Source of the DNA: a virus
DNA: 33,822 nucleotides
IMG/VR virus record: IMGVR_UViG_3300046777_001222
Location: 1 to 33,822 of that record
Strand: one strand, 5' to 3'
Under the pieces are notes generated by a model. The model was given only the letters and a program-made list of their open reading frames with translations. It was not told where the DNA came from and made no database searches. The translations under genes and the position numbers were made by a program. Shown piece by piece: positions 1 through 22,558 of the stretch (position 1 is the first letter of the stretch; each line of letters begins with the position of its first letter).

Positions 1-139
1 GGCTAGCGTCAGCGCAAAAACCGCATAAACCCTTGCGCCGCAAGGGATCTCACGTCGCGTCAAATTGGACTCAGGGCTAGACCGTTAAGCGGGGTTTAGG
101 ATCAGTTAACTTAAGCCTAGTGGTTTTTAACTCTTCTCA
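1..139. other. Non-coding leader before the terminase genes
   Basis: I see no convincing coding frame here. In lambda-like phages the DNA just upstream of the small terminase gene is where cos and the terminase-binding sites lie, so this is the natural place to look for a packaging site, but no cos core can be identified by eye. It contains one perfect inverted repeat (30-46) and AT-richer sequence at 90-135 just before the terminase start. Confidence 0.5.
30..46. repeat. Perfect 8-bp inverted repeat
   Basis: CCCTTGCG at 30-37 and CGCAAGGG at 39-46 are exact reverse complements around a single central C. The one-base centre makes it a better protein-binding dyad than an RNA hairpin, although the tip could open to give a short hairpin. 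No T-run follows, so a standard intrinsic terminator is unlikely. It lies about 95 bases upstream of the small terminase gene, so an operator or a terminase recognition site are both possible. Confidence 0.5.
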
Positions 140-2514: not shown

Positions 2515-2516
2515 CC

Positions 2517-3086
2517 GTGCGCATCCCTAGCCAGATCAGAGCGGGCGACACGATCCAGTGGCGCGACGTGGAAGGCGTTGACAATCTGGGCAACGCGATC
2601 AGCAGCGCCGACTATGTGCTGACCTACTACCTGCGAACTAACACGGCGAGCGAAGGCGCGACGATTGTTGGCAGCGCCTACGGGACCGGGTGGCAGTTCA
2701 CGATTGCTGCGGCCACCAGCACGGGCTTTGATGCTGGGACGTGGTTCTGGCAGGCGGTCGCGACCAAGACCGGCAGCACCGTCACGATGGGCAGCGGCCA
2801 GCTGACCGTGTTGCGATCGCTGAGCTACACGGGTTCCCCCGCTGCTGTTGATGGCCGGTCGCAGGCGCAGCAGGATCTGGATGCGGTGCAGTCCGCGATC
2901 CGTGCGCTGGTATCTGGCGGCGCGGTGCGTGAGTACACGATCGGCAACCGCAGCTTAAAGAAATATGAACTAGCCGATCTGATGCAGCTTGAGTCAAAGC
3001 TCAAGGCTGAGGTCAAGCGTGAGCAGATGGCGGAACTTATGGCCAACGGACTTGGCAACCCCCACAATCTGTTTGTGAGGTTCTGA
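2517..3086 (+). CDS. Head-tail joining protein, W-like with an added N-terminal beta domain
   Basis: The gene sits between large terminase and portal, the place of lambda W. The C-terminal 65 residues (from about 125) match the W pattern: a helix (QQDLDAVQSAIRALVSGG), a beta hairpin (REYTIGNRSLKKYELADLM) and a second charged helix (LESKLKAEVKREQ). W plugs the portal after packaging and lets the tail connector bind. Residues 1-105 are different: a threonine/serine/glycine-rich, beta-strand-rich stretch that looks like a small immunoglobulin-type sandwich, so the protein is nearly three times the size of lambda W (68). The start is GTG at 2517, two bases after the terminase stop. The W call for the C-terminus is fairly firm; the N-terminal fold is inferred. 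Confidence 0.75.
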   Translation: MRIPSQIRAGDTIQWRDVEGVDNLGNAISSADYVLTYYLRTNTASEGATIVGSAYGTGWQFTIAAATSTGFDAGTWFWQAVATKTGSTVTMGSGQLTVLRSLSYTGSPAAVDGRSQAQQDLDAVQSAIRALVSGGAVREYTIGNRSLKKYELADLMQLESKLKAEVKREQMAELMANGLGNPHNLFVRF

Positions 3087-3087
3087 C

Positions 3088-6980: not shown

Positions 6981-6982
6981 TC

Positions 6983-7189
6983 ATGTTGATCAAGGTCCTA
7001 CGGCAAACAATGCTGGCAGGGCAGGTGGCCAGAATCGGGGATGTCCTTGAGGCATCCCCCTCTGACGCCAAGTTCCTGATCGGTATTGGCAAAGCTGTTG
7101 AAGCCATCGCAGAGGTGGCTGATCTGGCTCAGTTCGGACCTGAGCCGACCCGCAAACCAACAACCCCCAGACGGAGGGCTAAGTCATGA
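6983..7189 (+). CDS. Small conserved head-module protein
   Basis: The 68-residue protein begins MLIKVLRQTMLAGQ, continues with a short beta-rich N-terminal half (VARIGDVLEASPSDAKFLIGIGKAVE) and ends in a basic, proline-rich tail (TRKPTTPRRRAKS). Small proteins of this layout often follow the capsid gene in lambdoid head operons. The ATG lies two bases after the capsid stop, and its own stop overlaps the next ATG (ATGA). Its role is not known to me; a capsid-associated or connector-assembly role is only suggested by position. Confidence 0.7.
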   Translation: MLIKVLRQTMLAGQVARIGDVLEASPSDAKFLIGIGKAVEAIAEVADLAQFGPEPTRKPTTPRRRAKS

Positions 7190-7575
7190 CCATCCACAAT
7201 CTCGGGTCCAAAACGGATCTGCTTGAAGTTCACAACAACGCAGTTGTCGCATCGACCGGCGCTGGCACCCCCGCCAACGTTGATCTGCTTGATTATGAAG
7301 GTGACGTTGCCTTCATCATCGATGCCGCTGCTGCCGGTTCTGGCGTCACCCTGACCGCCAAGATTCAGCACAGCAACACGACCACCAGCGGCGACTTCGT
7401 TGACGTGACCGGTGGCGGCTTCACCGCTGCTGCTGCTAACACCGCCTTCCAGGAGAAGATCTACCTGAACAGCAACGACCTGCGTCGTTATGTTCGCGTG
7501 CTCTTCACCGTTACCGGCGGCACCGGCACCGGCGCTGTTTCGGTGGTTGCTCTCGGCTCGAAGAAGTACAGCTGA
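7186..7575 (+). CDS. Probable capsid decoration or connector beta-sandwich protein
   Basis: The 129-residue protein is dominated by predicted beta strands with alternating hydrophobic residues (VAFIIDAAAAGSGVTLTAKI, then RRYVRVLFTVTGGTGTG). It has good translation signals: GGAGG at 7173-7177, eight bases before the ATG. The gene lies between the capsid gene and the FII-like joiner, where decoration proteins and connectors are found. It shares its layout (Q-x-S motif mid-protein, then RYxRxxxT) with the protein at 7850, suggesting a duplicated fold. I do not recognise a named family; decoration or connector is inference. Confidence 0.65.
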   Translation: MTIHNLGSKTDLLEVHNNAVVASTGAGTPANVDLLDYEGDVAFIIDAAAAGSGVTLTAKIQHSNTTTSGDFVDVTGGGFTAAAANTAFQEKIYLNSNDLRRYVRVLFTVTGGTGTGAVSVVALGSKKYS

Positions 7576-7853
7576 TGGCGCTGACGGAGGATCTCGGCAT
7601 CTTCCTGGCAGACTTCGGCGTCAGCTGCACAGCTGGCGCCGTTACTGCCCTTGGCATCCTGGACATGCCAAGCCAAGTGCTGGCCAATGGCATGGTGCTC
7701 AGCACCGACTACACACTGACCGCCAAGGCTTCTGACTTCGGCACACTGACCCGCGGCAGCTCGATCACGGTTGATGCTGTGGCCTACACCGTGCGCGAGG
7801 TGATGCTGATGGATGACGGCAAGATCGTTCAACTCGGGCTTCAAAAGACATGA
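7575..7853 (+). CDS. Head-tail joining protein, lambda FII-like
   Basis: The 92-residue protein reads like the lambda FII family (Phage_attach). It opens with LGIFLADFGVSCTAG, then GILDMPSQVLANGMVLSTDY, a LTRGSSITVDAVAYTVREV strand pair and MDDGKIVQLGL at the end. FII completes the filled head and forms the docking surface for the tail. Lambda FII is 117 residues, so the length fits. The ATG overlaps the previous stop as TGATG, and the stop overlaps the next start as ATGA. Position between capsid and tail terminator agrees with the call. Confidence 0.75.
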   Translation: MALTEDLGIFLADFGVSCTAGAVTALGILDMPSQVLANGMVLSTDYTLTAKASDFGTLTRGSSITVDAVAYTVREVMLMDDGKIVQLGLQKT

Positions 7854-8179
7854 GCACCATCGTCGGCGGCAACGCGGATCGCCCGCAGAACATCCACACG
7901 TTTGCCGCGATCACCGGCACGACTGGCTCGAGCGCTTCGATCGAGTGTGATGGCACCGTGATCACGACGTTTGACAAGATCACCGGCGGCCAGATCACCT
8001 ACCACCTGCAGGGTTCCATGAATGGCACTGACTGGGCCAACATGGACGAGGCAAAGACAAAGGATGCGGGCAACTACATTCACACCTTTCACGGTTACGC
8101 GGTGCGTTATCTGCGGTTGGATGTGACCGCCAGCGGCGCCGGTCGTAGCATCACGATGACCGTCTGCTGCGACACATGA
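7850..8179 (+). CDS. Small beta-sandwich structural protein
   Basis: The 109-residue protein is rich in beta strands: ASIECDGTVITTFDKI, then ITYHLQGSMNGTDWANM and YAVRYLRLDVTASGAG. The QGS...GTDW...RYLRL pattern is common in phage virion proteins with a jelly-roll or carbohydrate-binding-like fold. It resembles the product at 7186 in layout, so the two may be paralogues flanking the FII-like gene. ATGA overlaps join it to both neighbours. A decoration or tail-connector role is inferred from context. Confidence 0.6.
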   Translation: MSTIVGGNADRPQNIHTFAAITGTTGSSASIECDGTVITTFDKITGGQITYHLQGSMNGTDWANMDEAKTKDAGNYIHTFHGYAVRYLRLDVTASGAGRSITMTVCCDT

Positions 8180-8604
8180 CAACGCGCCGCGAGTCAATCC
8201 TGGCCGCTATTGCTTCGGCGCTGGCAGGCACCACCGGCGTCAGTACGCGCATCTACCGCAGCAGGGTGGAACCGCTCACTAGGGGTGAAAGCCCAGCGCT
8301 GGTGATCGAGCCGATCAGCGACACGGCCGAGCAGAACACCAGCCTGCCGACGCTGGACTGGTCACTGACGGTGCGCATCGCGGTGATTGTGCGCGGCAAC
8401 GTGCCGGATCAGTTGGCTGACCCGACCATCGAGAGCCTGCACGCCAAGCTGATGGCCGACCTAACGCTGGGCGGTTATGCGATCGACGTGCAACCGCAAA
8501 GCGTCAACTTTGAGATGGTCGAGGCGGACCAGCCGGCCGGCGTGATCGCTTGCGATTACCTGGTGCGCTATCGCACCAGTGTGACTAATCTGGCCACAGC
8601 ATAG
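8176..8604 (+). CDS. Tail terminator/completion protein (lambda U/Z-like)
   Basis: The 142-residue protein begins with a helix (TTRRESILAAIASALAGTTG), then alternating strands (ALVIEPISD, LDWSLTVRIAVIVRG), a second helix (TIESLHAKLMADL) and a final strand (CDYLVRYRTS). This alpha-beta order is that of lambda U and related tail terminators, which cap the tail tube and join it to the head. Lambda U is 131 residues. It lies directly before the tail-tube gene. Only one terminator-like gene is present where lambda has Z and U, so which one it replaces is uncertain. Confidence 0.75.
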   Translation: MTTRRESILAAIASALAGTTGVSTRIYRSRVEPLTRGESPALVIEPISDTAEQNTSLPTLDWSLTVRIAVIVRGNVPDQLADPTIESLHAKLMADLTLGGYAIDVQPQSVNFEMVEADQPAGVIACDYLVRYRTSVTNLATA

Positions 8605-8613
8605 GTAGCTACG

Positions 8614-8781
8614 ATGGATGAGTATCACGGCCAAGGCGGGTCTTACGTCTTGGACAAGAAAACCGGCAAGCGCAAGCTCATCGAGCGCACGTCTGCCGAG
8701 TGCACCATGGACTATCCCCTGACCGAGGCCCCAACCAATGGCACTGCTCAGCCGCAAACGCCTGATTCTGGCGAAGATTGA
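8614..8781 (+). CDS. Small tail-module protein overlapping the tail-tube gene
   Basis: A 55-residue frame starts MDEYHGQGGSYVLDKKTGKRKL and ends PDSGED. It fills the space between tail terminator and tail tube and overlaps the tube gene by 44 bases in another frame. Proteins starting with GQGGSYxxDxxTGKR occur in this position in other phages as far as I recall, which is the main reason for calling it. The start is ATG at 8614 without a clear Shine-Dalgarno. Function unknown. Confidence 0.6.
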   Translation: MDEYHGQGGSYVLDKKTGKRKLIERTSAECTMDYPLTEAPTNGTAQPQTPDSGED

Positions 8782-9901
8782 ATCAACCTACGGGACCGAT
8801 TCAAGCCCAGCCGGCACTGATGCAGTGCTGGTCCGCAACCTTGAGATCACCCCGATCGAGTCCGAGACCGTCAGCCGCGACCTGATCCGGCCGTATCTCG
8901 GCAACTCCGACCAGATCTTGGCCAACACTCGCGTGAGCATTACGTTTGAGGCTGAGCTGGCTGGCTCTGGCGCAGCTGGCACTGCGTCGAAGGTGGACGC
9001 GCTGCTGCGCGCCTGCGGCATGTCCGTGACCACTACAGGTTCTGCCATCACCGGCACTGCACAGGCAGGCTCGGCTGGCAGCATCACCCTCGCCGCTGGC
9101 GCAAGCAGCACGAACGACATCTACAACGGCATGGTGATCAGCCTCACAGGCGGCACCGGCAGCGGCAGCAAAGGCGTGATCACTGACTACAACGGCACCA
9201 GCAAGGTGGCCACCGTTCAGAAGTCAACGACAGCCTTCACGCCTGACGCGACCAGTACCTACAGCATCTCGGCAAACGTCGGTTACAAGCCGGTGAGCGA
9301 CAGCTTTGAGAGCGCGACCCTGTACTTCAACAACAGCGGCGTGCTGCACAAAGCCACCGGCTGCCGTGGCACCTTCAGCCTGAACTGCGAAGTCGGCCAG
9401 ATCCCGACAATTAGCTTCACCATGACGGGCATCTACAACGCCCCGACCGATACAGCTGCCCCTGCGGTCACCTACAGCAATCAGGCCACCCCTGCGATCT
9501 TCAAGGCTGGCAACACTGTTGCGGTTTCGATCCTTGGCTATGACTCGGCCTGCGTGCAGTCACTGAGCTTTGATCTTGCCAATGAGGTTCTTTACCGCGA
9601 GTTGGTCGGCTGCGACAAGTCGGTGACCATCACCAACCGCGCCCCTGCTGGCACCGCTGTGATCGAGGCCCCGACCATTGCCGCTAAGGATTTCTTCACA
9701 GTCGCTAACAACGACACCACCGGCCTGGTCACTTTCCAGCATGGCATCACAGCCGGTAACATCGTCACGCTGCTGGCCCCGATTGTGGACATTGGCAACC
9801 CGACCTACTCTGACCAAGACGGCATTCAGATGCTCAACCTGCCTTACGTCGCAATCCCGTCTAGCGCGGGCAACGACGAGATCACCCTTACATTCGCCTG
9901 A
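8738..9901 (+). CDS. Major tail tube protein (lambda V-like)
   Basis: The 387-residue protein forms the hexameric rings of the tail tube. The first 100 residues (LILAKIESTYGTDSSPAGTDAVLVRNLEITPIE...) and the segment after 180 (VGYKPVSDSFESATLYFNNSG...) together read as a phage tail-tube core. Between them, at about 103-180, a separate beta module is inserted (GTAQAGSAGSITLAAGASS, then GMVISLTGGTGSGSKGVITD, VATV, TYSI). This kind of loop insertion is also found in other phage virion proteins. The C-terminal part has two further beta-rich stretches. The stop shares its A with the next ATG. Its position directly before the frameshifted chaperone gene is diagnostic. Confidence 0.88.
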   Translation: MALLSRKRLILAKIESTYGTDSSPAGTDAVLVRNLEITPIESETVSRDLIRPYLGNSDQILANTRVSITFEAELAGSGAAGTASKVDALLRACGMSVTTTGSAITGTAQAGSAGSITLAAGASSTNDIYNGMVISLTGGTGSGSKGVITDYNGTSKVATVQKSTTAFTPDATSTYSISANVGYKPVSDSFESATLYFNNSGVLHKATGCRGTFSLNCEVGQIPTISFTMTGIYNAPTDTAAPAVTYSNQATPAIFKAGNTVAVSILGYDSACVQSLSFDLANEVLYRELVGCDKSVTITNRAPAGTAVIEAPTIAAKDFFTVANNDTTGLVTFQHGITAGNIVTLLAPIVDIGNPTYSDQDGIQMLNLPYVAIPSSAGNDEITLTFA

Positions 9902-10260
9902 TGGCTTTCATTCTCAAGCAGTCCGACACCTACACCTGGCCGGTCGCCTTTGACGTTCCCGTCGATGGCGGCCGCCATGAGCGGCAGACATTTGACGGCG
10001 AGTTCAAGCGCTTGCCTCAAAGCAAGGTCGGACCAATGGTGGCCGAACTGCAACGGCTTGAAGACTTAAGCGAACTGGATCGCATCACCGAGCTGGCGGC
10101 CGAGGTGTTGGTCGGCTGGTCTGGCGTCAGCGATGACAGCGGCAAAGAGATCCCATTCAGTCAAGGTGCACTTGAGCAGTTGCTTGAGGTGCCTTTGCTA
10201 TCGGTGGCGATCCTTAAGGCGTACATGGACAGCATTAAAGGAGCCAAGCGAAAAAACTAA
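9901..10260 (+). CDS. Tail assembly chaperone, G-like
   Basis: The 119-residue protein is the unshifted product of a G/GT pair, made to hold the tape measure soluble while the tube assembles around it; it is not expected in the finished virion. The stretch GWSGVSDDSGKEIPFSQGAL (about residues 72-91), followed by LEQLLEVPLLSVAILKAYMD, is the usual signature of this family. The last sense codons and stop read cga aaa aac taa, so the slippery heptamer ends exactly at the stop codon. Confidence 0.88.
   Translation: MAFILKQSDTYTWPVAFDVPVDGGRHERQTFDGEFKRLPQSKVGPMVAELQRLEDLSELDRITELAAEVLVGWSGVSDDSGKEIPFSQGALEQLLEVPLLSVAILKAYMDSIKGAKRKN
10251..10257 (+). promoter_or_regulatory. Programmed -1 frameshift site (A AAA AAC)
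   Basis: The heptamer A AAA AAC follows the X XXY YYZ rule in the reading frame of the G-like gene and is directly followed by its UAA stop. Slipping back one base continues with cta atc gag and runs without a stop into the frame that ends at 10580. The expected product is 226 residues. A frameshift at this gene is a hallmark of long-tailed phages; use of this site is inferred. Confidence 0.85.
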
Positions 10261-10580
10261 TCGAGGCCGCTGAGCACTGGGCCAGCGGCGGAATCAAGGA
10301 TGATTCACAAGATGATGCGGCGGTGCTTGGCGTGGCGTTGCCTGAGCAGCAGCCTGAAGGCGACCTTGAGGTGTTTGAAGAAAACTGGCCATCGGTGCTG
10401 ATGTGGTGCCGCCTGCAGACGCAATGGCGAACCAGCATGGGCGGGGTGATCGGGTTGGATTATGGCGCCGTGGCGTGGGTGTTTAGACTGTATGAAGTGG
10501 AGGATCAGCGCTCCATGCTTGAGGACCTGCAGGTGATGGAGGCCGCAGCCATGGCAGCCCTGAACGAGCGGAGCGCATGA
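10257..10580 (+). CDS. T-like extension of the tail chaperone, read by -1 frameshift
   Basis: These 107 codons have no convincing start of their own; a GTG at 10323 is internal and lacks a ribosome-binding site. They are reached by -1 slippage at 10251-10257 to give the longer GT-like chaperone. The segment GGVIGLDYGAVAWVFRLYEV resembles the DUF1799-type T domain, which in lambda contacts the tube protein while the G part binds the tape measure. The stop (10578-10580) is one base before the tape-measure ATG. The early part is acidic and linker-like (KDDSQDDAAV). Confidence 0.85.
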   Translation, partial: LIEAAEHWASGGIKDDSQDDAAVLGVALPEQQPEGDLEVFEENWPSVLMWCRLQTQWRTSMGGVIGLDYGAVAWVFRLYEVEDQRSMLEDLQVMEAAAMAALNERSA

Positions 10581-10581
10581 C

Positions 10582-12753
10582 ATGGCGATGAACCTCGACG
10601 CCATGCTCCGCATCAAGGCGGACGTTCAAGGCGAGAACAACATCCGCCGGCTGGGCAACTCAATGCAAGGCCTGCAGGGACAGGCCAAGAATGCTGCGCT
10701 GGGATTTAACAACCTAAAGACTGCTGTCGCAGGGTTCGGCGCAGCCATTGCTGGCAGTGCTGTTGTCGCTGGCTTGACGGCAGTGGTCAAGACCGCGATT
10801 GACGCTGGCGACGAGCTGTTCAATTTGCAGGCAAAGACAGGCGTCGCCGCCAACGCGTTGATTGCTATCGGCAACGCCGCCAAATTGGCCGACGTTGACA
10901 TGGGCACGTTAGGCAAGGGCCTGACCAAGCTCAACGTGAATCTGGTCAAAGCAGCCGAGGGTAACGAGGATCTGTCTCGCAAGTTTCAAGCCCTAGGCGT
11001 TTCGGTCAAGGGTGCCGATGGGCAGGTTGTGTCATCTGACAAAGCGCTAAAGCAGATTGCCGATCGCTTTGCTGACATGCCTGATGGGGCGCAGAAAGCC
11101 GCCGCGGCCGTAGCAATTTTCGGCAAGTCTGGCGCCGAGCTAATCCCATTGCTCAATGAAGGCTCAGCTGCGATGGAAAAGTTCACCTTCAAGGTGGGCG
11201 AAGACTTTGCTGCGAGATCGGATCTGTTCAGCGACACGATCACCGAATTGGGCATCAAGACGCAGGGCTTCGGGCTTGAGTTGACCGACGCGCTGCTGCC
11301 GGCGCTGCAGTCGATCCTTGAAGTGTTCGGGGATCTGTTTGACACAAAGAACGATTGGAATGCACTATTTAGCGTAATCAAGGTTGGCATTCAATCAGTT
11401 GCGGCTTTTATCTTTGCGACGGTGAAACTGTTCGACGTGTTCATCAAGAATGCAGTCGCGGCGTTCCAGGTCATCAGCAAAGCGGTGCAGGGCGACTTCG
11501 CCGGTGCGGCCGAGATCTATCGCACTAGGGTCGGCAGCATGATTGAACAGGCGAAGCAAGACTTCGCGCAGATTCAAAAGCTTTTCACCGATGCGCCATC
11601 GCCCGGCACCGGCCGCCGCACGGGTGGTCGCGCCATGGATCTGGACACTACTGACGCAGACAGGCGCGCAGCGGCAGACGCAAAGCGCGCTGCAGCAGAA
11701 GCCAAGCGTGCGGCGAATGAGCAGCAACGGCTATTTGAAAAGCGACGTGACCTAACGCAAAAGACCAACGATCTACTGAACCAGTATCGGCAGAACGTCG
11801 AGGATCTTGACAACCAGATCGCTGGTGTGGGCGCTGACCCGATGGAGAAGCTAATGCTGCGCCGGCAGCAAGCGACGGCCGAGGCTAGCAGAGAGGTCGA
11901 TCGGATGACGATGGCGGTTGTTGAACTCGCTAGAGACGTGCGCGCTGCTGGTGGCGACTTGGACATTCAACCATTCAGAGAAGCAATCAATGCTTTCTCT
12001 GACCGTCAAAACACGTTGGCACAGCGCGAATATATTGACGGCCTGAACGAGATTGGCCAAAGCGCTCTCGATGCTGCGATCAAGATGTCAGAGTTTGGCG
12101 ATGCCGCATCCCAGCAAACCGATGCTTTATCAGGCGCCCGCGATGGGATCGCCAACTATCTAGAAAGCATCGGCACGCTACGCGAGAACATCAACAACCT
12201 ATCGGGCAATGTGTTCAAAGGCCTTGAGGACGCGATCGTTAGTCTGACAACGACGGGCTCCTTCAACTTCAAGCAGTTTGCACTGTCGGTCGTCGAGGAT
12301 CTGACCCGCATGGTGACGCGCATGTTGATCATTGCGCCGATCTTGCAAGCTATTCAAAGCCTGCTGCCAGGTGGCAATTTCTTGACAGGCACGAGCGCAC
12401 TGTCAACCGTCAAGCTCAGGCCCGGCGGTTTGTTCGCCAATGGCGGCGTGTTTGACGGCGGCATGGTCACCCGCCCAACCGTGTTCCCGTTCGCAAGCGG
12501 CGGCGCTGGTCGCTTCGGGCTGATGGGCGAGGCTGGCCCCGAGGCGATCATGCCACTGAAGCGTGGCAGCGACGGCCGGCTTGGTGTCGCAGGCGGCGGC
12601 GGCACCACCAACGTGGTGGTCAATGTGGACGCCACCGGCAGCAGCGTCCAGGGCGATCAAGGCCAAAGCGCTGCTTTGGGCCGCGCCGTTGCTGGTGCGG
12701 TGCAGGCAGAATTGATTCGTCAGAAGCGTCCTGGCGGCTTACTTGCGGCATAA
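10582..12753 (+). CDS. Tail tape measure protein (lambda H-like)
   Basis: The 723-residue protein sets tail length and is probably ejected before the DNA. At roughly 0.15 nm per residue it predicts a tail near 110 nm. Visible parts: an N-terminal helical region with a hydrophobic, alanine/glycine-rich segment (about 50-75); a second hydrophobic stretch around 270-300 (SVAAFIFATVKLFDVF); a coiled coil at about 360-415 (RAAADAKRAAAEAKRAANEQ); and the lambda-type C-terminal signature at about 615-668, ANGGVFDGGMVTRPTVFPFA followed by GLMGEAGPEAIMPLKR. It is the longest gene after the chaperones, as expected. Confidence 0.93.
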   Translation: MAMNLDAMLRIKADVQGENNIRRLGNSMQGLQGQAKNAALGFNNLKTAVAGFGAAIAGSAVVAGLTAVVKTAIDAGDELFNLQAKTGVAANALIAIGNAAKLADVDMGTLGKGLTKLNVNLVKAAEGNEDLSRKFQALGVSVKGADGQVVSSDKALKQIADRFADMPDGAQKAAAAVAIFGKSGAELIPLLNEGSAAMEKFTFKVGEDFAARSDLFSDTITELGIKTQGFGLELTDALLPALQSILEVFGDLFDTKNDWNALFSVIKVGIQSVAAFIFATVKLFDVFIKNAVAAFQVISKAVQGDFAGAAEIYRTRVGSMIEQAKQDFAQIQKLFTDAPSPGTGRRTGGRAMDLDTTDADRRAAADAKRAAAEAKRAANEQQRLFEKRRDLTQKTNDLLNQYRQNVEDLDNQIAGVGADPMEKLMLRRQQATAEASREVDRMTMAVVELARDVRAAGGDLDIQPFREAINAFSDRQNTLAQREYIDGLNEIGQSALDAAIKMSEFGDAASQQTDALSGARDGIANYLESIGTLRENINNLSGNVFKGLEDAIVSLTTTGSFNFKQFALSVVEDLTRMVTRMLIIAPILQAIQSLLPGGNFLTGTSALSTVKLRPGGLFANGGVFDGGMVTRPTVFPFASGGAGRFGLMGEAGPEAIMPLKRGSDGRLGVAGGGGTTNVVVNVDATGSSVQGDQGQSAALGRAVAGAVQAELIRQKRPGGLLAA

Positions 12754-12755
12754 CC

Positions 12756-13097
12756 ATGGCAGCCACAACTTTCACTTGGATCGCCAGTTACCCTGCAGCG
12801 CAGATCAGCCAACCACGTGTGCGTCGCGTGCAGTTTGGCGATGGCTATGAGCAGCGCTTGCGGTATGGGTTGAATACAGACTTAAAGCAATGGGATCTTG
12901 TGTTTGAAAACAGAACAGATTCTGAGCGCACGGAGATCACGTCATTCCTTAGCGCTCGCGGCGCTGTGGAGCCTTTCAACTGGACAACACCGTTTGGGGC
13001 AACCAACGCTTATGTCTGTGACGAATGGCGAGCGGACCATGTTGGATGCAACAGAAATACAATCACAGCACGCTTCAGGAGGGTGATTGACATATGA
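12756..13097 (+). CDS. Minor tail protein, lambda M-like
   Basis: The 113-residue protein has the M family pattern: a short N-terminal strand, then VRRVQFGDGYEQRLRYGLNT, KQWDLVFENR, a helix (SERTEITSFLSARGAVEPFNW) and a final TITARFRRV strand. Lambda M is 109 residues. M sits in the distal tail between tape measure and tip. The ATG follows the tape-measure stop by two bases, and an AGGAGGG at 13077-13083 inside its end serves the next gene. Confidence 0.88.
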   Translation: MAATTFTWIASYPAAQISQPRVRRVQFGDGYEQRLRYGLNTDLKQWDLVFENRTDSERTEITSFLSARGAVEPFNWTTPFGATNAYVCDEWRADHVGCNRNTITARFRRVIDI

Positions 13098-14638
13098 GCG
13101 AGATGTTCCAGGAGCTGCTCAGCTCCAATCCTTACGCGATCATCGAGCTGTTTGAGCTGCACCTTGACGCGACGCTGCACGGCACGACAGAGATTGTTTA
13201 CTTTCACCCTGGCGCGAATCAGAAGACGCCATCAGGAAACATCATCTGGAAAGGCAAGCCATACCAGGCACTGCCGATCGAGGTCGAGGGCTTTGAGTAC
13301 AACGGCACTGGCCAGTTGCCACGACCGAAGGTGCGCGTCTCGAACCTGCTCGGTAATATCTCGGCGCTGTTGCTGAGTGTCAACAGCTTCACAATCGGCA
13401 ACGACCTAACAGGCGCGAAGGTGATCAGGATCCGCACGTTGAGCAGGTTTCTTGACCCTGTCAATTTCACTGATGGCGTTAACCCTTATGGCGTACCGGC
13501 TGACGAGGAGATGCCACGTGAGATCTACTACATCGACCGCAAGTCAGTTGAGAACAGGGACGTTGTTGAATTTGAGTTGGCGGCCGTGTTCGACCTGGCT
13601 GGTGTGCGTGCACCGAAGCGGCAGGTGATCGCGAACATCTGTCAGTGGAAATATCGCAGCGCTGAGTGCGGTTATACAGGCAGCAACTACTTTGATGAGT
13701 ATGACAACGCTTTAGGGGCCACACCTGCAACCAACTTCAACTCAACCGCATTTGGCGCTCAGCTCAACGTCAACGAGACGTTGAACGAAGGCGACGCGAT
13801 TGTCTCGTCAAATGGTTGGTATCGGGCACTCATGCAGGCTGATGGCAACTTCGTGGTCTACAACAAGGCGAACGTGCCTGTCTGGGCGACTGGAACAAAC
13901 CGTGGTGACGGCACTTGGCGGATCACAATGCAGGCTGATGGCAACCTAGTTATCGCCAATGGCAGCAGCGCGGTCTGGGCCAGCAACACGGTGGGCACCG
14001 CATCACCAACGGGCTTGGCATTCCTTGGCTGGTATCCAACCAACGTGTTGAACGGTCGCTCTGGTGGCTTTGGTTGGGAATGCGTTGGATCATCACCTGC
14101 TAGCGCGGGATTGACTAACACGCAAACAGAAACGTTCACGGTCAGCGGTCGCACGATTACGGTTCAGTTCACTTTCACGTCTGCTGCGTTGCCTGTTGAT
14201 CACTACACAGGTGAGTCGTTTGCATGGAACATCATCAGCAGTCAGTCAATCAGCAGTTCAACAGGCAGCTACTACCAGGGAGAGGTGATCAACCTGCCCA
14301 AGACCCTGAGCAGCAACAACCCGTTCAGAAACAATCACCCAACGCTGGGCACCATGACGGAGGCGGGTCCGCAGTATGAGATCACAGGCGTCAGCGGCAA
14401 CAGCAACAACAGACTCAGCATCACGACGACCGGTCAGCTCATTGTGTACACAGGCGCCAATACTCCGCTCTGGACATCCAGTTACGCCAGCGCTGTCGAG
14501 CCTCTGGTGCAGACCGGCACCGTTGACCCGTTGCGTGATGTATGCGGCAAGCGGATCAGTTCATGCAGGAAACGCTTTGGTGAGTTCAACGACTTACCCT
14601 TCGGATCATTCCCAAGCGCTGGTACGTTCTACGGATGA
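13094..14638 (+). CDS. Tail tip protein L with an inserted bulb-type lectin domain
   Basis: Residues 1-200 match lambda L (IELFELHL, then YFHPGANQKTPSGNIIWKGK and CQWKYRSAECGYTG). The four Fe-S cluster cysteines known in lambda L have counterparts at C183, C192, C484 and C491; the 9- and 7-residue pair spacings match what I recall of lambda. Between C192 and C484 lie about 290 residues instead of about 23. The insert holds a B-lectin-like domain with mannose-lectin motifs QADGNFVVY (258-266) and a variant QADGNLVIA (290-298), each followed by VWA; a degenerate third repeat (TTGQLIVYTGANTPLW) is at about 455-470. The start has AGGAGGG ten bases upstream. The tip core call is secure; the sugar-binding role is inference. 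Confidence 0.9.
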   Translation: MSEMFQELLSSNPYAIIELFELHLDATLHGTTEIVYFHPGANQKTPSGNIIWKGKPYQALPIEVEGFEYNGTGQLPRPKVRVSNLLGNISALLLSVNSFTIGNDLTGAKVIRIRTLSRFLDPVNFTDGVNPYGVPADEEMPREIYYIDRKSVENRDVVEFELAAVFDLAGVRAPKRQVIANICQWKYRSAECGYTGSNYFDEYDNALGATPATNFNSTAFGAQLNVNETLNEGDAIVSSNGWYRALMQADGNFVVYNKANVPVWATGTNRGDGTWRITMQADGNLVIANGSSAVWASNTVGTASPTGLAFLGWYPTNVLNGRSGGFGWECVGSSPASAGLTNTQTETFTVSGRTITVQFTFTSAALPVDHYTGESFAWNIISSQSISSSTGSYYQGEVINLPKTLSSNNPFRNNHPTLGTMTEAGPQYEITGVSGNSNNRLSITTTGQLIVYTGANTPLWTSSYASAVEPLVQTGTVDPLRDVCGKRISSCRKRFGEFNDLPFGSFPSAGTFYG

Positions 14639-15346: not shown

Positions 15347-15958
15347 ATGTTCCGCGTTATCAAGGTTTACGGCAAGCTGGCAAAGCATCTAGGGCAGCGC
15401 AGCTTTAAGGCTGCTGTGAAGACCCCGGCCGAGGCGATTCGGTTCCTGCTTGCCAACTTCCCTGACCTACGCGGTGTGCTGTCGGAGGGCGATTACAAGG
15501 TCACCGTGGGCCGTAATCAGCTTGATCTGGTCGATCACCCAGAGCACCTGCATTTCCCTGTTGCTAGCCAAGAGCCGATCAGGATTGTCCCGGTGATCGC
15601 TGGCGCAGAGGGCGTTGGGCAGATCTTGGCGGGTGTTGCGCTGGTGGCATTCTCGCTGCTGTTTGCGCCTGGTGCTGCGCTGGCTGGCGGTCTGTTCACG
15701 CTTGGCCCGCAGGCTGTGTCGATCGGCGTGGGCATCGGCGCCAGCTTGATCTTGGGGGGCGTCGCTCAAATGCTCACCCCTACGCCAACAATCCAACAGG
15801 GGACCGACGGCGACAACGACCCGCGCAAGTCGTACAGCTTCTCTGGTATTCAGAACGTCTCGCGGCAGGGCGTGCCTGTGCCAATCATTTACGGCGAAGT
15901 GTTTACTGGAAGTATTGTCGTTTCGGCTGGCATCAATACTGAAGAGGTTGCGTCATGA
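15347..15958 (+). CDS. Tail assembly protein I-like
   Basis: The 203-residue protein has a ubiquitin-like N-terminal domain (IKVYGKLAKHLGQRSFKAAV ... PIRIVPVIAGAEG, about residues 1-88), as in lambda I. This is followed by a long glycine/alanine-rich hydrophobic stretch (about 88-145) able to form two membrane-spanning helices, and a C-terminal tail rich in KSYSFSGIQNVSRQGVPVP. I is needed for tail assembly in lambda but is not found in the virion. AGGAG at 15331-15335 lies eleven bases before the ATG. The order K-I-J is conserved, and its stop overlaps the J start. Confidence 0.88.
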   Translation: MFRVIKVYGKLAKHLGQRSFKAAVKTPAEAIRFLLANFPDLRGVLSEGDYKVTVGRNQLDLVDHPEHLHFPVASQEPIRIVPVIAGAEGVGQILAGVALVAFSLLFAPGAALAGGLFTLGPQAVSIGVGIGASLILGGVAQMLTPTPTIQQGTDGDNDPRKSYSFSGIQNVSRQGVPVPIIYGEVFTGSIVVSAGINTEEVAS

Positions 15959-18900
15959 CGAAGCGTTTGATCGCTGGTGCTGGCGGCGGTGGTGGCGGTG
16001 GCAAAGGCGGTGGTGGCGGCGGTAGTGCAAACGTCACAAAAGACAATCTTGATTCACGGCAGGTAGCGCGGATCATTGACCTTCTTTGTGAAGGCGAGAT
16101 CGAGGGATTCCCATCTGCTCGTGGTTACACGCTGGGCACGACGGAATACAACACAGCGATGTTGAAGGATGTTTATCTCAACAACACGCCAATCCTTCGC
16201 TCGACTGCCAACCCGTCTGCCGTTCAGGCTTCTGATTACAACTTTGATACAACTGGCGGCGTCTTTGAGTTTCGCACCGGCACACAGAATCAGACCTATA
16301 CGCAGAACGTAGGTGACGCCAACCAGAGCACCACAGTCGTCAACACAAAAGTCACACAGGCAGCGGCGGTTACGCGGTCAATCACTGACCCTGATGTCAA
16401 CGCTGTGCGCGTCACGATCGGCACGCCTGCACTTCAAATCTTCAAGAACAATGGCGACGTCGAGGGCGCTGTCATTCAATACAGGATTCAAACGTCATAC
16501 AGCGGTGGACCATTCTCAACTGTTGTTGAAAGTGAGATCAAGGGCCGCACGGCTGATCTATATCAACGTATTCATCGCATTGACCTGACCGCAGCAGCAC
16601 CGGTTGACATCCGCGTTGTGCGTGTCAATGCAGATGCCGCACCATCAGGTGAGCAGACGGAGAATAGCGACTTTTATTGGTACGACTACACCGAAAAGAT
16701 CAACGCCAAGACCACTTATCCCAACAGCGCACTATTCGCCGTCAAGCTCAGCGCTGAACAGTTCAACAGCATCCCCTCGCGTTCGTACCGCCTTCGTGGC
16801 CTCAAGGTGCGCATCCCTAGCAATGCCACTGTCAACCAGACCAACGGCCGTCTGATCTATGCGGGCACATGGTCAGGCAATTTCGGTGCAGCACAGTGGA
16901 CGACAGACCCTGCGTGGATCCTGTGGGACCTGCTGACCAGCACCCGCTATGGGTTTGGCGATCACATCGACGCTACGCAGCTCGACAAGTGGAGCTTTCT
17001 TGCCGCCAGTCAATATTGCACTGAGGTTGTATCCGATGGCAAAACAGGCCAGGAGCCGCGCTTCTCATGCAATGTCGTCATTCAGACGCAACAAGAAGCG
17101 TTCAAGCTGATCAGCGATCTGTGCTCAGTGTTTCGCGCTATGCCGTTCTGGGCCAATGGCACGCTTGAGATCGCGCAGGACCGGCCGCAGGACTACAGCT
17201 ACATCTTCAACCAGACCAACGTCACCGAGGAAGGGTTCAGCTACAGCGGCAGCAGCTTGAAGACACGGCACACCGTTGCTGTTGTGCAATATTTCGACAT
17301 GAACCTGCGCGACCTTGCCTATGAGGTGGTCGAAGACAAGGCAGGCATTGATAAGTTCGGTGTTGTCAAAACGGAGATCTCAGCGTTCGCCTGCACCAGC
17401 CAGAACCAGGCCCGACGCGTTGGCGAATGGCTGCTGTACACCGAACAGAACGAGACTGAGGTCGTCAGTTTCAAGACGGACATCGCCGCTGGCATCACGG
17501 TGCGGCCTGGTGACCTGATCAAGATCGGTGATCCTGTGCGTGCTGGTGTGGTGCGCTCCGGCCGCTGCATAAGTGGTTCAACAACGACGGTGGTCAAGCT
17601 CGACCGCGATGACGTTCAACTGTTCCCAAGCGGCCCGCCAAATGACTTCACGTTCAACGTGCTGCTGCCTGATGGCACCTTGGCAGTCGTTGCTGGCTCA
17701 AATCTGGTAGGCAACTCAGTCAGTACTGGCACGGTCTTGACTGCAGCGCCTGTTGCTGGTGCGCCGTGGACCATTGGCGACTCCGCCGTTCAGATGTCAA
17801 CGTGGCGGGTGTTGACGATCAAGGAGGAAGGCGACGCCTTTGCTGTCACGGCTGTTGCCCATAACCCAAGCAAGTATGACTACATCGAGCGGGACATCCC
17901 CCTAAGCCAGCGCGACGTATCAGACCTGAACGAACCGCCCGAAACGCCAACGAACCTAGGCGTCAATGAGGTGCTATACGAAAGCAACGGGCAGGTGCTA
18001 TCGAAGCTGATCATCGGCTGGCGTGCTGCTGCTCGTGCTCTCAGCTATGAGGTGCGCTACCGCTACAACAACGGCAACTGGGTGGCAAATACGACCCGCT
18101 CGGTTGACTTCGAGATTGCCAACAGCGACGTTGGCCGCTACGAGATCGAGGTGACAGCACTGGGCGCAATCAACAGCAAGCGCTCGACACCGGCCGTCAA
18201 GACCTTCGACGCGATCGGTAAGACCGCACCACCCGCCACGATCCCTGACCTGTTCATCGCCCCGATTGACGAGCACACGGCTGAGCTGTATTGGCCGCAG
18301 GCGGTTGACCTGGACGTGAAGATCGGCGGCAAGATCCGCATCAGGCACACGCCTATCACGGATGTCACGGCGACATGGGGCAAAGCGAACGACATCGTGC
18401 CAGCCGTTGCAGGCAGCAGCACGCGCAAGATCGTGCCACTGCTTGAGGGCACCTACTTCATCCGCGCTTTTGACTCGCTCGGCAATGAGTCGTCAGGCGT
18501 GGCCACAGTCGTGGTTGACCTGCCCGCTCCTCAGGACCTGCTGCTGGTGCAGGAATACAGAGAGGAAGACAACAGCCCGCCATTCAATGGCACCGGCACA
18601 AACCTGTACTACAACGAGGCCGAGGTGGGCCTGGTGCTGGCGGCGGATGAGCTGGTCGATGACATGGCCACCGATAACAACTGGGACGGCCTGGGCCTGA
18701 TTGACTACATCGGCGGCTCAGCCAGCGAGGGCAGCTACCAGTTCTACGAAACGCTGGACCTTGGCGCCACCTACGACCTTGGCCTGCAGCAGATCCTCAA
18801 GACACGCGCCTACGAGCCGGGCAACACATGGGACGAACGCCTTGACTTGATTGATCTGTGGGATGACATCGACGGTGATGACCTTGGCGCGGCTAACTGC

Positions 18901-19326
18901 CAACTCTTCGTCAGGACCACTGGCGACAACCCGTCTGGCACCCCGACCTGGGCAAGCTGGCAGCCGTTTGTGAACAACACCCACCGTGGGCGCGGGTTTC
19001 AGTTCAAGGTTGTGGCCACCACCACCAACGCGGCGCAGAACGTGGTGATTGAGGAGCTGGGCGTAATCACGCATTTTGAGCGGCGCACAGAGCAGCAACG
19101 CAACTTGAGCAGCGGCGCCGGATCGTATGCGGTCACATTCCCGACAGCGTTCTATGGCACGCCAAGCGTGGGCATCACCGCACAGGACATGGCGACGGGT
19201 GACTATTTCACGGTCGGCAGTATCAGCAGAACTGGCTTTACAGTGACCTTCCGCAATAGTGGCGGTAGCATGGTGAGCAAGACCTTTGACTACCAGGCCG
19301 TCGGTCACGGCAGGCAGATCACCTAA
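15955..19326 (+). CDS. Tip attachment / host specificity protein J
   Basis: The 1123-residue protein is the central tail-tip protein and usually contacts the host receptor. Lambda J landmarks appear in order: DNLDSRQVARIIDLLCEGEIEG near the N-terminus, AWILWDLLTSTRYGFGDHID at about 320-339, the EPRFSCN stretch, QDRPQDYSYIFNQTNV, and FACTSQNQARRVGEWLLYTE at about 478-497. Two fibronectin-III-like domains follow at about 660-865 (the first starts PPETPTNLGV). The C-terminal 250 residues are unlike lambda and end in a small beta module (SYAVTFPTAFYGTPSVGITA). Residues 8-24 are nearly all glycine. J's C-terminus normally fixes receptor choice. Confidence 0.95.
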   Translation: MTKRLIAGAGGGGGGGKGGGGGGSANVTKDNLDSRQVARIIDLLCEGEIEGFPSARGYTLGTTEYNTAMLKDVYLNNTPILRSTANPSAVQASDYNFDTTGGVFEFRTGTQNQTYTQNVGDANQSTTVVNTKVTQAAAVTRSITDPDVNAVRVTIGTPALQIFKNNGDVEGAVIQYRIQTSYSGGPFSTVVESEIKGRTADLYQRIHRIDLTAAAPVDIRVVRVNADAAPSGEQTENSDFYWYDYTEKINAKTTYPNSALFAVKLSAEQFNSIPSRSYRLRGLKVRIPSNATVNQTNGRLIYAGTWSGNFGAAQWTTDPAWILWDLLTSTRYGFGDHIDATQLDKWSFLAASQYCTEVVSDGKTGQEPRFSCNVVIQTQQEAFKLISDLCSVFRAMPFWANGTLEIAQDRPQDYSYIFNQTNVTEEGFSYSGSSLKTRHTVAVVQYFDMNLRDLAYEVVEDKAGIDKFGVVKTEISAFACTSQNQARRVGEWLLYTEQNETEVVSFKTDIAAGITVRPGDLIKIGDPVRAGVVRSGRCISGSTTTVVKLDRDDVQLFPSGPPNDFTFNVLLPDGTLAVVAGSNLVGNSVSTGTVLTAAPVAGAPWTIGDSAVQMSTWRVLTIKEEGDAFAVTAVAHNPSKYDYIERDIPLSQRDVSDLNEPPETPTNLGVNEVLYESNGQVLSKLIIGWRAAARALSYEVRYRYNNGNWVANTTRSVDFEIANSDVGRYEIEVTALGAINSKRSTPAVKTFDAIGKTAPPATIPDLFIAPIDEHTAELYWPQAVDLDVKIGGKIRIRHTPITDVTATWGKANDIVPAVAGSSTRKIVPLLEGTYFIRAFDSLGNESSGVATVVVDLPAPQDLLLVQEYREEDNSPPFNGTGTNLYYNEAEVGLVLAADELVDDMATDNNWDGLGLIDYIGGSASEGSYQFYETLDLGATYDLGLQQILKTRAYEPGNTWDERLDLIDLWDDIDGDDLGAANCQLFVRTTGDNPSGTPTWASWQPFVNNTHRGRGFQFKVVATTTNAAQNVVIEELGVITHFERRTEQQRNLSSGAGSYAVTFPTAFYGTPSVGITAQDMATGDYFTVGSISRTGFTVTFRNSGGSMVSKTFDYQAVGHGRQIT

Positions 19327-20135
19327 TGGCACAGGCAACTGACTACAACATTGCAAACCAGTCAGGCGCCAACTTCCGCGCTGAGCTGAACACGATCCTT
19401 GCAGCGGTCGTCAGTCAAAACTCTGGCTCCTCGGCGCCGACCACCACTTACGCGTACCAGCTTTGGATTGATGCAGGCGCCAGCCCGAACCCACTTCTAA
19501 AGCTGCGCAACGGTGCAAACAGCGCATGGATCACGATCGGTGATGTGACCGTCGCCAACCTTGGTCTGGCTGCTCTGTCTGGTGCAACCTTTACGGGTGA
19601 CATCACGCTTAACGCTCAGTCTGACCTGCGGTTTGCGGATTCTGATAGCAGCAACTGGGTCGCGCTGCAGGCACCTGCCACTGTTAGCAGCAATGTTACG
19701 TGGACCCTGCCCGCTACAGACGGCAGCAGCTCACAGGCACTGAGCACCAACGGCAGCGGCGTGCTGTCCTGGGCGAGCTTTGCAGCACTGGCCACAGCGC
19801 AGACGTTCACCGCTGCTCAGAGGGGCACCATCTCAGCGCTGACTGATGGCGCAACAATCACGGCAGACTTTGCACTGGCGAATAACTTCAGCGTCACCCT
19901 GGGCGGCAACAGGACGCTGGCCAACCCAAGCAACCTGACAGCAGGGCAAAGCGGCGCGATCTGGATCACGCAGGATGGCACCGGCAGCCGGACCTTGGCG
20001 TATGGCAGCTACTGGGACTTCACAGGCGGGACTGCGCCGACGTTGACCACCACCGCTGCTGCTGTTGACTGCCTGGTGTATGCCGTGCAGAGCAGCACCC
20101 GTATCACCGCCACCCTGATCACCAACCTGAGCTGA
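19326..20135 (+). CDS. Tail fibre-type protein
   Basis: The 269-residue protein follows J with a TAATG overlap. Residues 1-80 (YNIANQSGANFRAELNTILA, then TTTYAYQLWIDAG and ITIGDVTVANLGLAALSGAT) are a common N-terminal fibre module. The middle has short beta repeats, and the C-terminal 110 residues (QTFTAAQRGTISALTDGATI, LGGNRTLANPSNLTAGQSGA, TGSRTLAYGSYWDFTGG) are a widespread beta module of phage side fibres. No enzyme motif is seen. A side-fibre or fibre-base role is likely from content and position. Confidence 0.75.
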   Translation: MAQATDYNIANQSGANFRAELNTILAAVVSQNSGSSAPTTTYAYQLWIDAGASPNPLLKLRNGANSAWITIGDVTVANLGLAALSGATFTGDITLNAQSDLRFADSDSSNWVALQAPATVSSNVTWTLPATDGSSSQALSTNGSGVLSWASFAALATAQTFTAAQRGTISALTDGATITADFALANNFSVTLGGNRTLANPSNLTAGQSGAIWITQDGTGSRTLAYGSYWDFTGGTAPTLTTTAAAVDCLVYAVQSSTRITATLITNLS

Positions 20136-22558
20136 TGCTGGTCCCCGGTTCCGCTAACCCGCTCCTGCTTCGTACTGTCGCTGCACCTGCCGCAGGGGGT
20201 ATCTCACGTTCGCTGCGCTTCAACTCAGCCGACTCGGCGTATCTCAGCCGGACCCCCGCATCTGCTGGCAACCGCAAGACTTGGACCTGGGCGGGGTGGG
20301 TGAAGAGGGCCTCACTGTCAACAGGCAATGATCAGTTTCTTTTTAGCGGCGGCACAACCAATAGCAATACAGGGTTCATGGCTCTGTATTTTGATTCAAA
20401 CAGCAAGCTAACACTTGGCACTGCAACAACAAACATTCTGATTACTTCTTCAGTTTATCGTGATCCTTCATCGTGGATGCACGTTCTTTTTTCGTTTGAC
20501 GCAACCGCAGGAACCAACGCAAACAAAGCAAAAATATACATTAACGGGACTGAGCTGACTGCGTTCGATACTGATAACCGGAGCGGTGTGTCAAACCAAG
20601 ATTATGGAATAAATCAATCGGCATTGCATGAGATTGGACGCAACTGCTTTAACTCGGCTCGTTACTTTGATGGGTACTTTGCGGATGTTTTCTTTATTGA
20701 TGGATCTGCCCTGACCCCTAGCAGCTTCACCGAAACCGACGCCACCACCGGCCAGCTCATCCCGAAGGCATACACCGGCAGCTACGGCACCAACGGGTTC
20801 AGGCTTACGTTCGCTGATAACTCCGCCGCCACGGCTACCACGCTGGGCAAGGATGCCGCCGGCAGCAATAACTGGACGCCGAACAACCTGTCGGTCACCG
20901 CTGGTGCAGGCAACGATTCGCTGGTGGATGTGCCGACCAACGGCGCGCAGACGGATACGGGCGTGGGGGGTGAGGTTAGGGGGAATTATGCGGTGCTGTT
21001 GGATCAGTACGTTACGGATAAAACCCGCCTGACAATGGCGAACGGCAATCTTGATGTCACCTTCAATAACAGTGGCTCAAGTTCATCCGCCTTGTCCAGC
21101 ATTGGTGTAAGCAGCGGCAAATGGTATTCAGAATTTACATGCACACAAACTGGCAGCAACTATGCCTTTGTAGGCATTGCGTCTCCCAAAAATAACAACA
21201 TTGACTCTCTAGGGTATGGCGATTCATATGCCTATGTAAGCAACACAGGCAACAAGGCAAATAACGGATCGTTTGTTTCCTACGGCGCAACCTGGACAGC
21301 CAATGACGTGATAGGTGTGGCGCTTGATTTGGATGCTGGCACAATCACTTTCTATAAAAACGGAGTTTCCCAAGGCCAAGCGTATTCGTCTATTTCGGGG
21401 ACATACATTATCGGATGTACTGGCTTCTTAAATTGGAAGTTCTCTGCCAACTTCGGCCAACGCGCCTTTGCCTACACGGCCCCCAGCGGCTTCAAGGCGC
21501 TCTGCACGGCAAACCTGCCCGCCTCATTAGTCACAAAGCCTAATACGGTGATGGACGTGGTGCTGTGGACCGGCACCGGCAGCAGCCAATCAATTTCCGG
21601 CCTCGGGTTTAGCCCAGACCTAGTATGGGCAAAGCAACGAAGCAGTGCTCGGCATAACTGGCTGACTGATACGGTGAGAGGTGTTGGCAAAGGACTTAAA
21701 TCAGATACAACTAATTCAGAGTACACAAACGACGTAGATGGTTACTTAAGCGCATTTAATGCAGACGGCTTCACTTATGTGGCTGGTAGCTCGTCAATAC
21801 TTAATTTCGGACAGAGCGCGGGCACCTACGTCGCCTGGACCTGGGACGCCGGAAGCTCCACCGTCACGAACACACAAGGCTCCATCACTTCTAGTGTCAG
21901 GGCTAACGCGACGGCGGGGTTCAGCGTCTTCACTTATACCGGCACGGGTGCTGCAGGCAGCGTGGGGCACGGATTAGGCGTGGCCCCTAGTCTCTTGATT
22001 TGCAAACAACGTAATGGAACTGCTGATTGGGTCGTTTACCATTCTTCTCTGGGCAGAGACAAATACCTAATTCTTAATTCAACCGCAGCACAAGGTTCAA
22101 TTACCGGATACTGGGGTAACAGTGATCCGACTTCAACGGTTGTCAATTTCAGTGCTGGCTATGGCGGCAACAACGGCACCAGCAACACCTATGTGATGTA
22201 CGCCTTCGCCCCAGTAGTCGGGTACTCTTCTTTCGGCAGTTATACCGGCAACGGCAGCTCAGATGGGCCGTTTGTGTACACCGGGTTTAGGCCGAGGTTC
22301 ATCCTCGTAAAAAATACCTCAGTTAGTGGTGCTTGGGAAATCTACGATTCTGCTCGAAATACTTACAACGTAATGTCACTGACCCTACTTCCTAACACCA
22401 GCGACGCGGAAATCAACGCTGCAAATGGCGTGCGCCTTGACTTTACGTCTAACGGTTTCAAGTGGCGCGACAACGGAAGCAGTATTAATGGCAGCGGAAA
22501 CACGATAATTTACGCAGCCTTCGCGGAGTCGCCATTTAATTACGCCCGCGCCCGCTGA
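20135..22558 (+). CDS. Large lectin-type fibre protein: LamG, SPRY and DUF7483-like modules
   Basis: The 807-residue protein probably recognises host surface polysaccharide. Residues 22-205 are a concanavalin-A-like LamG domain (SLRFNSADSAYLSRTPASAG, WTWAGWVKR, HVLFSFDATAG, KIYINGTELTAF). Residues 300-450 read as a SPRY-type module (SSGKWYSEFTC, VIGVALDLDAGTITFYKNG). From about 455 to the end is a region like DUF7483 (MDVVLWTGTGSSQSISGLGF, SPDLVWAKQRS, then SLLICKQRNGTADWVVYHSS and PRFILVKNTS). This domain set is common in aquatic phages. Parts of the gene are clearly richer in A and T than the neighbours, as expected of exchanged receptor-binding modules. Confidence 0.82.
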   Translation: MLVPGSANPLLLRTVAAPAAGGISRSLRFNSADSAYLSRTPASAGNRKTWTWAGWVKRASLSTGNDQFLFSGGTTNSNTGFMALYFDSNSKLTLGTATTNILITSSVYRDPSSWMHVLFSFDATAGTNANKAKIYINGTELTAFDTDNRSGVSNQDYGINQSALHEIGRNCFNSARYFDGYFADVFFIDGSALTPSSFTETDATTGQLIPKAYTGSYGTNGFRLTFADNSAATATTLGKDAAGSNNWTPNNLSVTAGAGNDSLVDVPTNGAQTDTGVGGEVRGNYAVLLDQYVTDKTRLTMANGNLDVTFNNSGSSSSALSSIGVSSGKWYSEFTCTQTGSNYAFVGIASPKNNNIDSLGYGDSYAYVSNTGNKANNGSFVSYGATWTANDVIGVALDLDAGTITFYKNGVSQGQAYSSISGTYIIGCTGFLNWKFSANFGQRAFAYTAPSGFKALCTANLPASLVTKPNTVMDVVLWTGTGSSQSISGLGFSPDLVWAKQRSSARHNWLTDTVRGVGKGLKSDTTNSEYTNDVDGYLSAFNADGFTYVAGSSSILNFGQSAGTYVAWTWDAGSSTVTNTQGSITSSVRANATAGFSVFTYTGTGAAGSVGHGLGVAPSLLICKQRNGTADWVVYHSSLGRDKYLILNSTAAQGSITGYWGNSDPTSTVVNFSAGYGGNNGTSNTYVMYAFAPVVGYSSFGSYTGNGSSDGPFVYTGFRPRFILVKNTSVSGAWEIYDSARNTYNVMSLTLLPNTSDAEINAANGVRLDFTSNGFKWRDNGSSINGSGNTIIYAAFAESPFNYARAR

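Follow-up and report, generated by a model that had tools for sequence, protein, structure and literature searches.

A bulb-lectin module in the putative Fe-S loop of a lambda-type tail-tip protein L from a metagenomic virus

The tail-tip protein L encoded in the window, i.e., the complete 33,822-nt (33.8 kb) metagenomic contig of virus record IMGVR_UViG_3300046777_001222, is a hub of the gpL type in which the 22-residue loop of the [4Fe-4S] domain has been replaced by a module of ~290 residues, consisting of a lectin and a domain nested within it, that probably serves as a sugar-binding head. Under this proposal, the L protein of the window would bind the cluster, form a trimer, display the insert outwards, bind sugars and play a role in adsorption.

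Protein L and the site of the insert

The gene lies in a standard lambda-type tail operon, tape measure-M-L-K-I-J and then fibres, as judged by Pfam and PHROG matches (Table 1). An earlier note on this DNA had assigned the open reading frame to the lambda-type tail-tip protein L, and the gene order and the Pfam, PHROG and phmmer matches agree with this assignment. The match to Phage_tail_L reaches 190.3 bits at a cut-off of 25 and covers residues 32-211 plus the C terminus. In phmmer searches of the PDB, the ends of the protein match the hub of F2 pyocin (residues 12-205 and 478-511) and gpL of lambda (E 3.9e-25).

Cysteines are found at positions 183, 192, 330, 484 and 491. Four of them had been described as retaining the pairwise spacing of the Fe-S motif, with about 290 residues between the second and the third. 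Indeed, the pairs are of the C-x8-C (C183/C192) and C-x6-C (C484/C491) types, and 291 residues were counted between Cys2 and Cys3 vs. 22 in lambda (Cys182 to Cys205; PMC10721106). The fifth cysteine, C330, which had not been mentioned, is poorly conserved (10 of 40 relatives). That the insertion lies exactly between Cys2 and Cys3, as proposed, is evident from relatives with ~60% identity in the core (e.g., L144, L146, and L150-L152), in which the loop at this position has just 21-22 residues. Both the start (TGSNYFDEYDN) and the end (DPLRDVCGKR) of the compact loop are retained in the window protein, with ~270 residues added between them.

Table 1. Features of protein L and of the neighbouring tail genes in the window
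Feature	Positions	Strand	Evidence
gpM homologue, distal tail protein	12756..13097	+	PF05939 2.4e-28
Tail-tip protein L (minor tail protein), 514 aa, carrying the insert	13094..14638	+	PF05100 3.2e-56; PHROG 18 minor tail protein 3.9e-85; gene order
N-terminal hub domain I, lambda gpL-like, residues 1-182	13094..13639	+	phmmer 8iyk_L residues 34-207, 25vf_7 residues 12-205; Foldseek 8iyk_L E 1.5e-13
First Cys pair C183-x8-C192, Fe-S motif	13640..13669	+	Conservation in relatives
Inserted segment, ~residues 206-477, net ~270 aa over 22-aa compact loop	13709..14524	+	Cys2-Cys3 spacing 291 vs. 21-22
B-lectin subdomains 1 and 2, residues 210-300	13721..13993	+	Motifs, Pfam, phmmer, AlphaFold2, Foldseek
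Nested beta domain, residues 301-437, between lectin subdomains 2 and 3	13994..14404	+	pLDDT; ~135-column gap in gastrodianin overlay
B-lectin subdomain 3 with degenerate sugar site, residues 438-475	14405..14518	+	Alignment, AlphaFold2, Foldseek
Second Cys pair C484-x6-C491, Fe-S motif	14543..14566	+	Present in 40/40 lectin-type and 24/24 compact relatives
gpK homologue, JAB + NlpC/P60	14635..15345	+	PF14464 6.5e-17; PF00877 6.2e-14
gpI homologue	15347..15958	+	PHROG 32 7.5e-49
gpJ homologue, central fibre	15955..19326	+	PHROG 31 1.9e-201; weak C-terminal H_lectin PF09458 0.0016

The virus probably infects picocyanobacteria. The nearest relatives of its large terminase are those of Synechococcus phages S-CBS1 and S-CBS3 (50%), and short DNA matches of the window point to the same two phages. 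A search of genome contigs gave one partial match, in a MAG (L153), which is of no use for host assignment. Within positions 1-12000 of the window, the terminase, the portal and some of the upstream tail genes resemble those of S-CBS1 and S-CBS3, in which an annotated L-K-I-J set is absent; together, this suggests modular exchange of the tail tip.

The lectin prism and the nested domain

The insert had been reported to carry two copies of the monocot mannose-lectin signature, and these were located at residues 248-256 (QADGNFVVY) and 280-288 (QADGNLVIA). The B-lectin is genuine, and the match that the earlier note had called for within residues 235-305 was found. The Pfam family B_lectin (PF01453) matches residues 246-297 (2.9e-7) with 31.4 bits, just below the curated cut-off of 32.4, which is exceeded in relatives (L059, 41.0 bits; L136, 103.3 bits; L140, 101.6 bits). 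In phmmer searches of the PDB, residues 239-310 match the B-lectin pyocin L1 (E 2.6e-17), gastrodianin (6.8e-15) and several plant lectins at levels far beyond chance. The weaker third repeat of the earlier note is real as well, but it is located around residues 440-461 rather than 455-470. It is degenerate in the window protein (TTTGQLIVY, residues 444-452) and explicit in relatives, e.g., QNDGNLVLY in L059 and QDDGNLVYR in L067.

In an AlphaFold2 model based on 64 aligned sequences, residues 210-475 have pLDDT values that are mostly 88-97, with 78 near residues 311-320 and 411-420. Foldseek overlaid the whole of the 110-aa gastrodianin on this model over 244 columns (TM 0.91, rmsd 1.6 Å), which indicates a closed lectin prism interrupted by ~135 residues. 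According to the model, the lectin is a complete, three-subdomain β-prism II that is closed by the third repeat (residues 438-475). A second model, based on 24 sequences, agrees on the insert, with a TM of 0.89 for gastrodianin but an rmsd of 7.5 Å.

The 145 residues that the earlier note had left unassigned appear in the Foldseek overlay as a separate domain, residues 301-437, nested between repeats 2 and 3. It is modelled with pLDDT values of mostly 88-96 as a β-rich fold with one helix. A profile search against PHROGs gave no convincing match to the nested domain; the profile consisted of 12 rows, one of which was a hand-joined composite of two L136 pieces. Against the PDB, the profile matched only flagellin hook IN (6xi1, E 3e-6); this similarity was spread over four stretches, the best covering 40 positions, and was rejected as a match of composition or repeats.

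The predicted fold is shared with gastrodianin (1xd5), pyocin L1 (4le7) and a lectin of M. smegmatis (4oit), which all contain the B-lectin prism with QxDxNxVxY sites. In contrast to the insert, these are stand-alone proteins with nothing nested between repeats 2 and 3. In the window protein, the sugar site is full in repeat 1, lacks the Tyr in repeat 2 (A288) and is degenerate in repeat 3. Thus, perhaps one canonical site is left.

Conservation, proposed role and alternatives

The whole of L, including the insert, is under purifying selection, which is somewhat looser in the insert: among close relatives, dN/dS is 0.07 in the core, 0.10-0.15 in the parts of the insert and 0.12 at the C terminus with the second Cys pair. 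Scans of IMG/VR yielded 73 loci with the window protein as query and at least 80 with an alignment of 24 sequences. The lectin-type insert recurs in >70 distinct viral sequences. Apart from the metagenomic origin of the contig, nothing suggests that an unrelated lectin gene was misassembled onto L or that the gene was called wrongly, and such an artefact is exceedingly improbable. It was rejected on the basis of recurrence, i.e., the same uninterrupted frame is present in ~70 distinct contigs, which stem from many samples and have identities as low as 41%, and the selection across the insert argues against it as well.

It would also be conceivable that cluster binding has been lost in this lineage and that the four cysteines form disulfides or are relics, in which case the insert would sit in a plain surface loop. 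In both AlphaFold2 models, pLDDT is below ~60 around the cysteines (<50 at residues 166-195 and 479-486 in the 64-sequence model). In addition, the entire Cys module has been lost from L in two related groups of the open ocean, whilst the rest of the protein is kept. Nevertheless, loss of the cluster in the lineage of the window is improbable. The four cysteines and their neighbourhoods (CQWxYRSxEC and DVCGKRxSSC) hardly vary among 64 diverse sequences, and the lowest dN/dS of the protein, 0.013, is found around the first Cys pair. C183 is present in 40 of 40 lectin-type relatives and C192 in 36, and both are present in all 24 compact relatives; in the remaining four lectin-type relatives, the second cysteine is displaced, e.g., to C-x14-C. 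All full-length close relatives with the insert have both pairs at its edges. The lambda gpL overlay is confined to the N-terminal part (206 columns). As the Cys segments are modelled with low confidence, it is conservation and homology, rather than the predicted fold, that support the picture of a stapled loop. A displaced second cysteine (CQWEYKGGADGTREGC, C-x14-C) is seen in the lectin-type proteins L126-L131 and L138, in which the sugar-site motifs are degraded.

Somewhat less remote, though still unlikely, is a structural or decorative function of the insert, e.g., in stabilisation of the tip or in contacts of L with L or J; its lectin fold would then bind little sugar. The third site is degenerate in much of the family, and several relatives drop canonical residues of repeats 1 and 2 whilst keeping the fold. 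In L066, L104, L109, and L126-L131, most sugar-site residues are gone from at least one repeat. Since these relatives keep the insert, sugar binding is not essential to its retention. Moreover, constraint is strongest in the core and the first Cys pair. On the other hand, the Q, D, N, V and Y residues of repeats 1 and 2 are retained in ~60-80% of 40 diverse relatives, and the presence of nine lectin repeats in L136, L140 and L253 fits better with avidity than with a fixed structural role.

The preferred reading remains that of a sugar-binding head on the Fe-S loop. In lambda, the Fe-S domain is located at the outer surface and L is trimeric, and what the cluster does in the tail tips of siphophages has been described as open (PMC10721106). 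The prism is expected to have its two ends side by side, so the loop could carry the lectin without the Cys pairs being pushed apart, and the cluster would be a staple that fixes the base of the loop. With three copies of L per tip, three lectin heads would point sideways from the cone and might provide reversible, avidity-based attachment to mannose-like sugars on the host surface, such as an LPS O-chain, a capsule or another glycan. This reversible contact would come first and would be followed by a committed contact via gpJ or fibres. The weak H-type lectin end of gpJ and a virion protein encoded downstream of gpJ (20135-22558), with SPRY and DUF7483 (1.5e-114) matches in Pfam, indicate that other adhesion modules are probably present on the tip. 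The lectin insert suggests that uncultured siphophages, probably of picocyanobacteria, use sugars as receptors, and its location in the Fe-S loop suggests a route for adding sugar-binding heads to a conserved tail tip.

The arrangement was new to the author of the earlier note, but it is not without precedent: in the solved hubs of vB_DshS-R4C, a marine roseophage, and of RcGTA, the gene transfer agent of R. capsulatus, the halves of the same Fe-S motif flank an oligosaccharide-binding-like domain (PMC10276861; PMC7296036). The R4C hub consists of an attachment domain (residues 1-141), an ion-binding domain in two segments (142-161 and 244-266) and an oligosaccharide-binding domain (162-243) (PMC10276861), and the g13 hub of RcGTA is similar in outline (PMC7296036). 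In the R4C sequence, we found Cys 147/157 and 244/251 flanking the inserted domain (162-243). Thus, L of the window is like these hubs in having an N-terminal attachment domain, a split four-Cys Fe-S domain and a domain of a saccharide-binding type between Cys2 and Cys3. However, the R4C hub belongs to the families PF09931 and PF09356, neither of which matches L of the window at E<=1 in Pfam, and the R4C and RcGTA inserts are ~80 aa and resemble phage LKA1 gp49 and the T4 hub instead of a B-lectin, with no report of a nested domain. Lambda gpL (8iyk) and the F2-pyocin hub (25vf) are members of the same family with the same four-Cys spacing, and lambda also has the same gene order, but their Cys2-Cys3 loop of ~22 residues carries no lectin.

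The evolved Dit proteins of siphophages follow the same principle: carbohydrate-binding modules are inserted in a loop of the distal tail protein, likewise a conserved component of the tail tip (e.g., PMC10688798; PMC7291167). There, the carrier is Dit and not an Fe-S hub, the modules are different, and the hosts are mostly Gram-positive. A literature search, which was incomplete and covered few subscription papers, turned up no account of bulb lectins in tail proteins of phages. From these comparisons, a sugar-binding-type domain at the Fe-S loop has precedent, whilst a bulb lectin at this site is a different fold and appears to be new.

Inserts in the L family

A survey of the matches listed gave 169 distinct L cores, which were kept by similarity, so that the following frequencies are not population estimates. 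Among these listed cores, 56 have a compact Cys2-Cys3 loop (51 with 21-22 residues and five with eight), 76 belong to the lectin class by motif, with five more of the same length class, and four (L136, L140, L250, and L253) have nine Q.DGN-type motifs in multi-lectin inserts that are 577-730 residues long. In 17 listed cores, the same loop holds an insert of another kind, with a length of 107-275 residues. One of the multi-lectin proteins, L136 (4001-6823), is 941 aa long and has nine Q.DGN repeats; its extra repeats sit inside the nested domain, at a third level of insertion, with a piece that corresponds to the start of this domain at 301 and one that corresponds to the rest of it at 750. 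Of the non-lectin inserts, two were read, those of Synechococcus phage S-CBS4 and L148, and both have Ala-rich, helix-like arms flanking a core without an assigned family. The S-CBS4 protein, gp036, is an L with a 260-aa insert between Cys2 and Cys3, as in the window, but this insert is not a lectin and contains extra cysteines. As the loop takes lectin, multi-lectin and non-lectin inserts, it is an insertion hotspot in this L family. A second insertion point lies after Cys4 and before the C-terminal LPFGSFPGVG motif, where 11 of the 169 listed cores (L145, L181, L184, L196, L204, L208, L217, L218, L224, L228, and L232), which have a normal 22-aa Cys2-Cys3 loop, carry 214-243 unassigned residues.

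In a quickly built, unrooted tree of the cores with long branches, from which the inserts were left out, 37 lectin-type rows are on one side of a single branch with an SH-aLRT of 83, which is not strong, and the multi-lectin rows are on another branch (SH-aLRT 99). The non-lectin inserts require a minimum of two changes on the starred branches, and so do the tail inserts. Lectin modules outside L, sought in compact-L loci as a sign of exchange, were not found among 143 lectin-profile ORFs, a weak result as the flanks comprised just a few kb. Among 60 rows spread over named phages, each match listed was a single piece. Thus, such inserts look uncommon in cultured phages, with S-CBS4 as the sole case found.

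A more general idea is that the Cys2-Cys3 loop of gpL-type hubs is an evolvable display site, where the cluster acts as a metal staple that would maintain the fold of the hub with any insert, and unrelated adhesion modules, both bulb lectins of one to several prisms with nested domains and non-lectin modules, are swapped; this is tentative and clearly less probable than the role proposed for the window protein. If true, it would provide a function for the widely kept tail-tip cluster, and loss of the cluster would couple display at the tail tip to iron or oxygen. Proteins in which the loop is empty or contains a lectin, several lectins or an unrelated module are natural variants for testing the role of the cluster as a staple.

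The two groups without the cysteines, both abundant, are those of the Prochlorococcus phage MED4-184 type (L004, L339-L418) and the marine virus AG-345-A17 type (L002, L259-L338). Both lack the entire C-terminal four-Cys module, the motif being absent from all of 58 and 61 distinct complete L homologues, respectively. In both groups, the L homologues end in ...PKR..TR.[DE]FPS[VI]GTF or similar. As the known members are from phages of Prochlorococcus MED4 and from a Pacific single cell, the loss possibly reflects iron sparing in open-ocean phages. The L proteins of the AG-345-A17 type (L002:4358-4810 and homologues in L259-L338) have an insert of ~150 aa in another loop. This insert gave no sequence match to solved structures; its HPL ... 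C..HG..M motif is conserved in 51 of 52 distinct proteins and resembles the His-Cys-His-Met copper ligands of cupredoxins.
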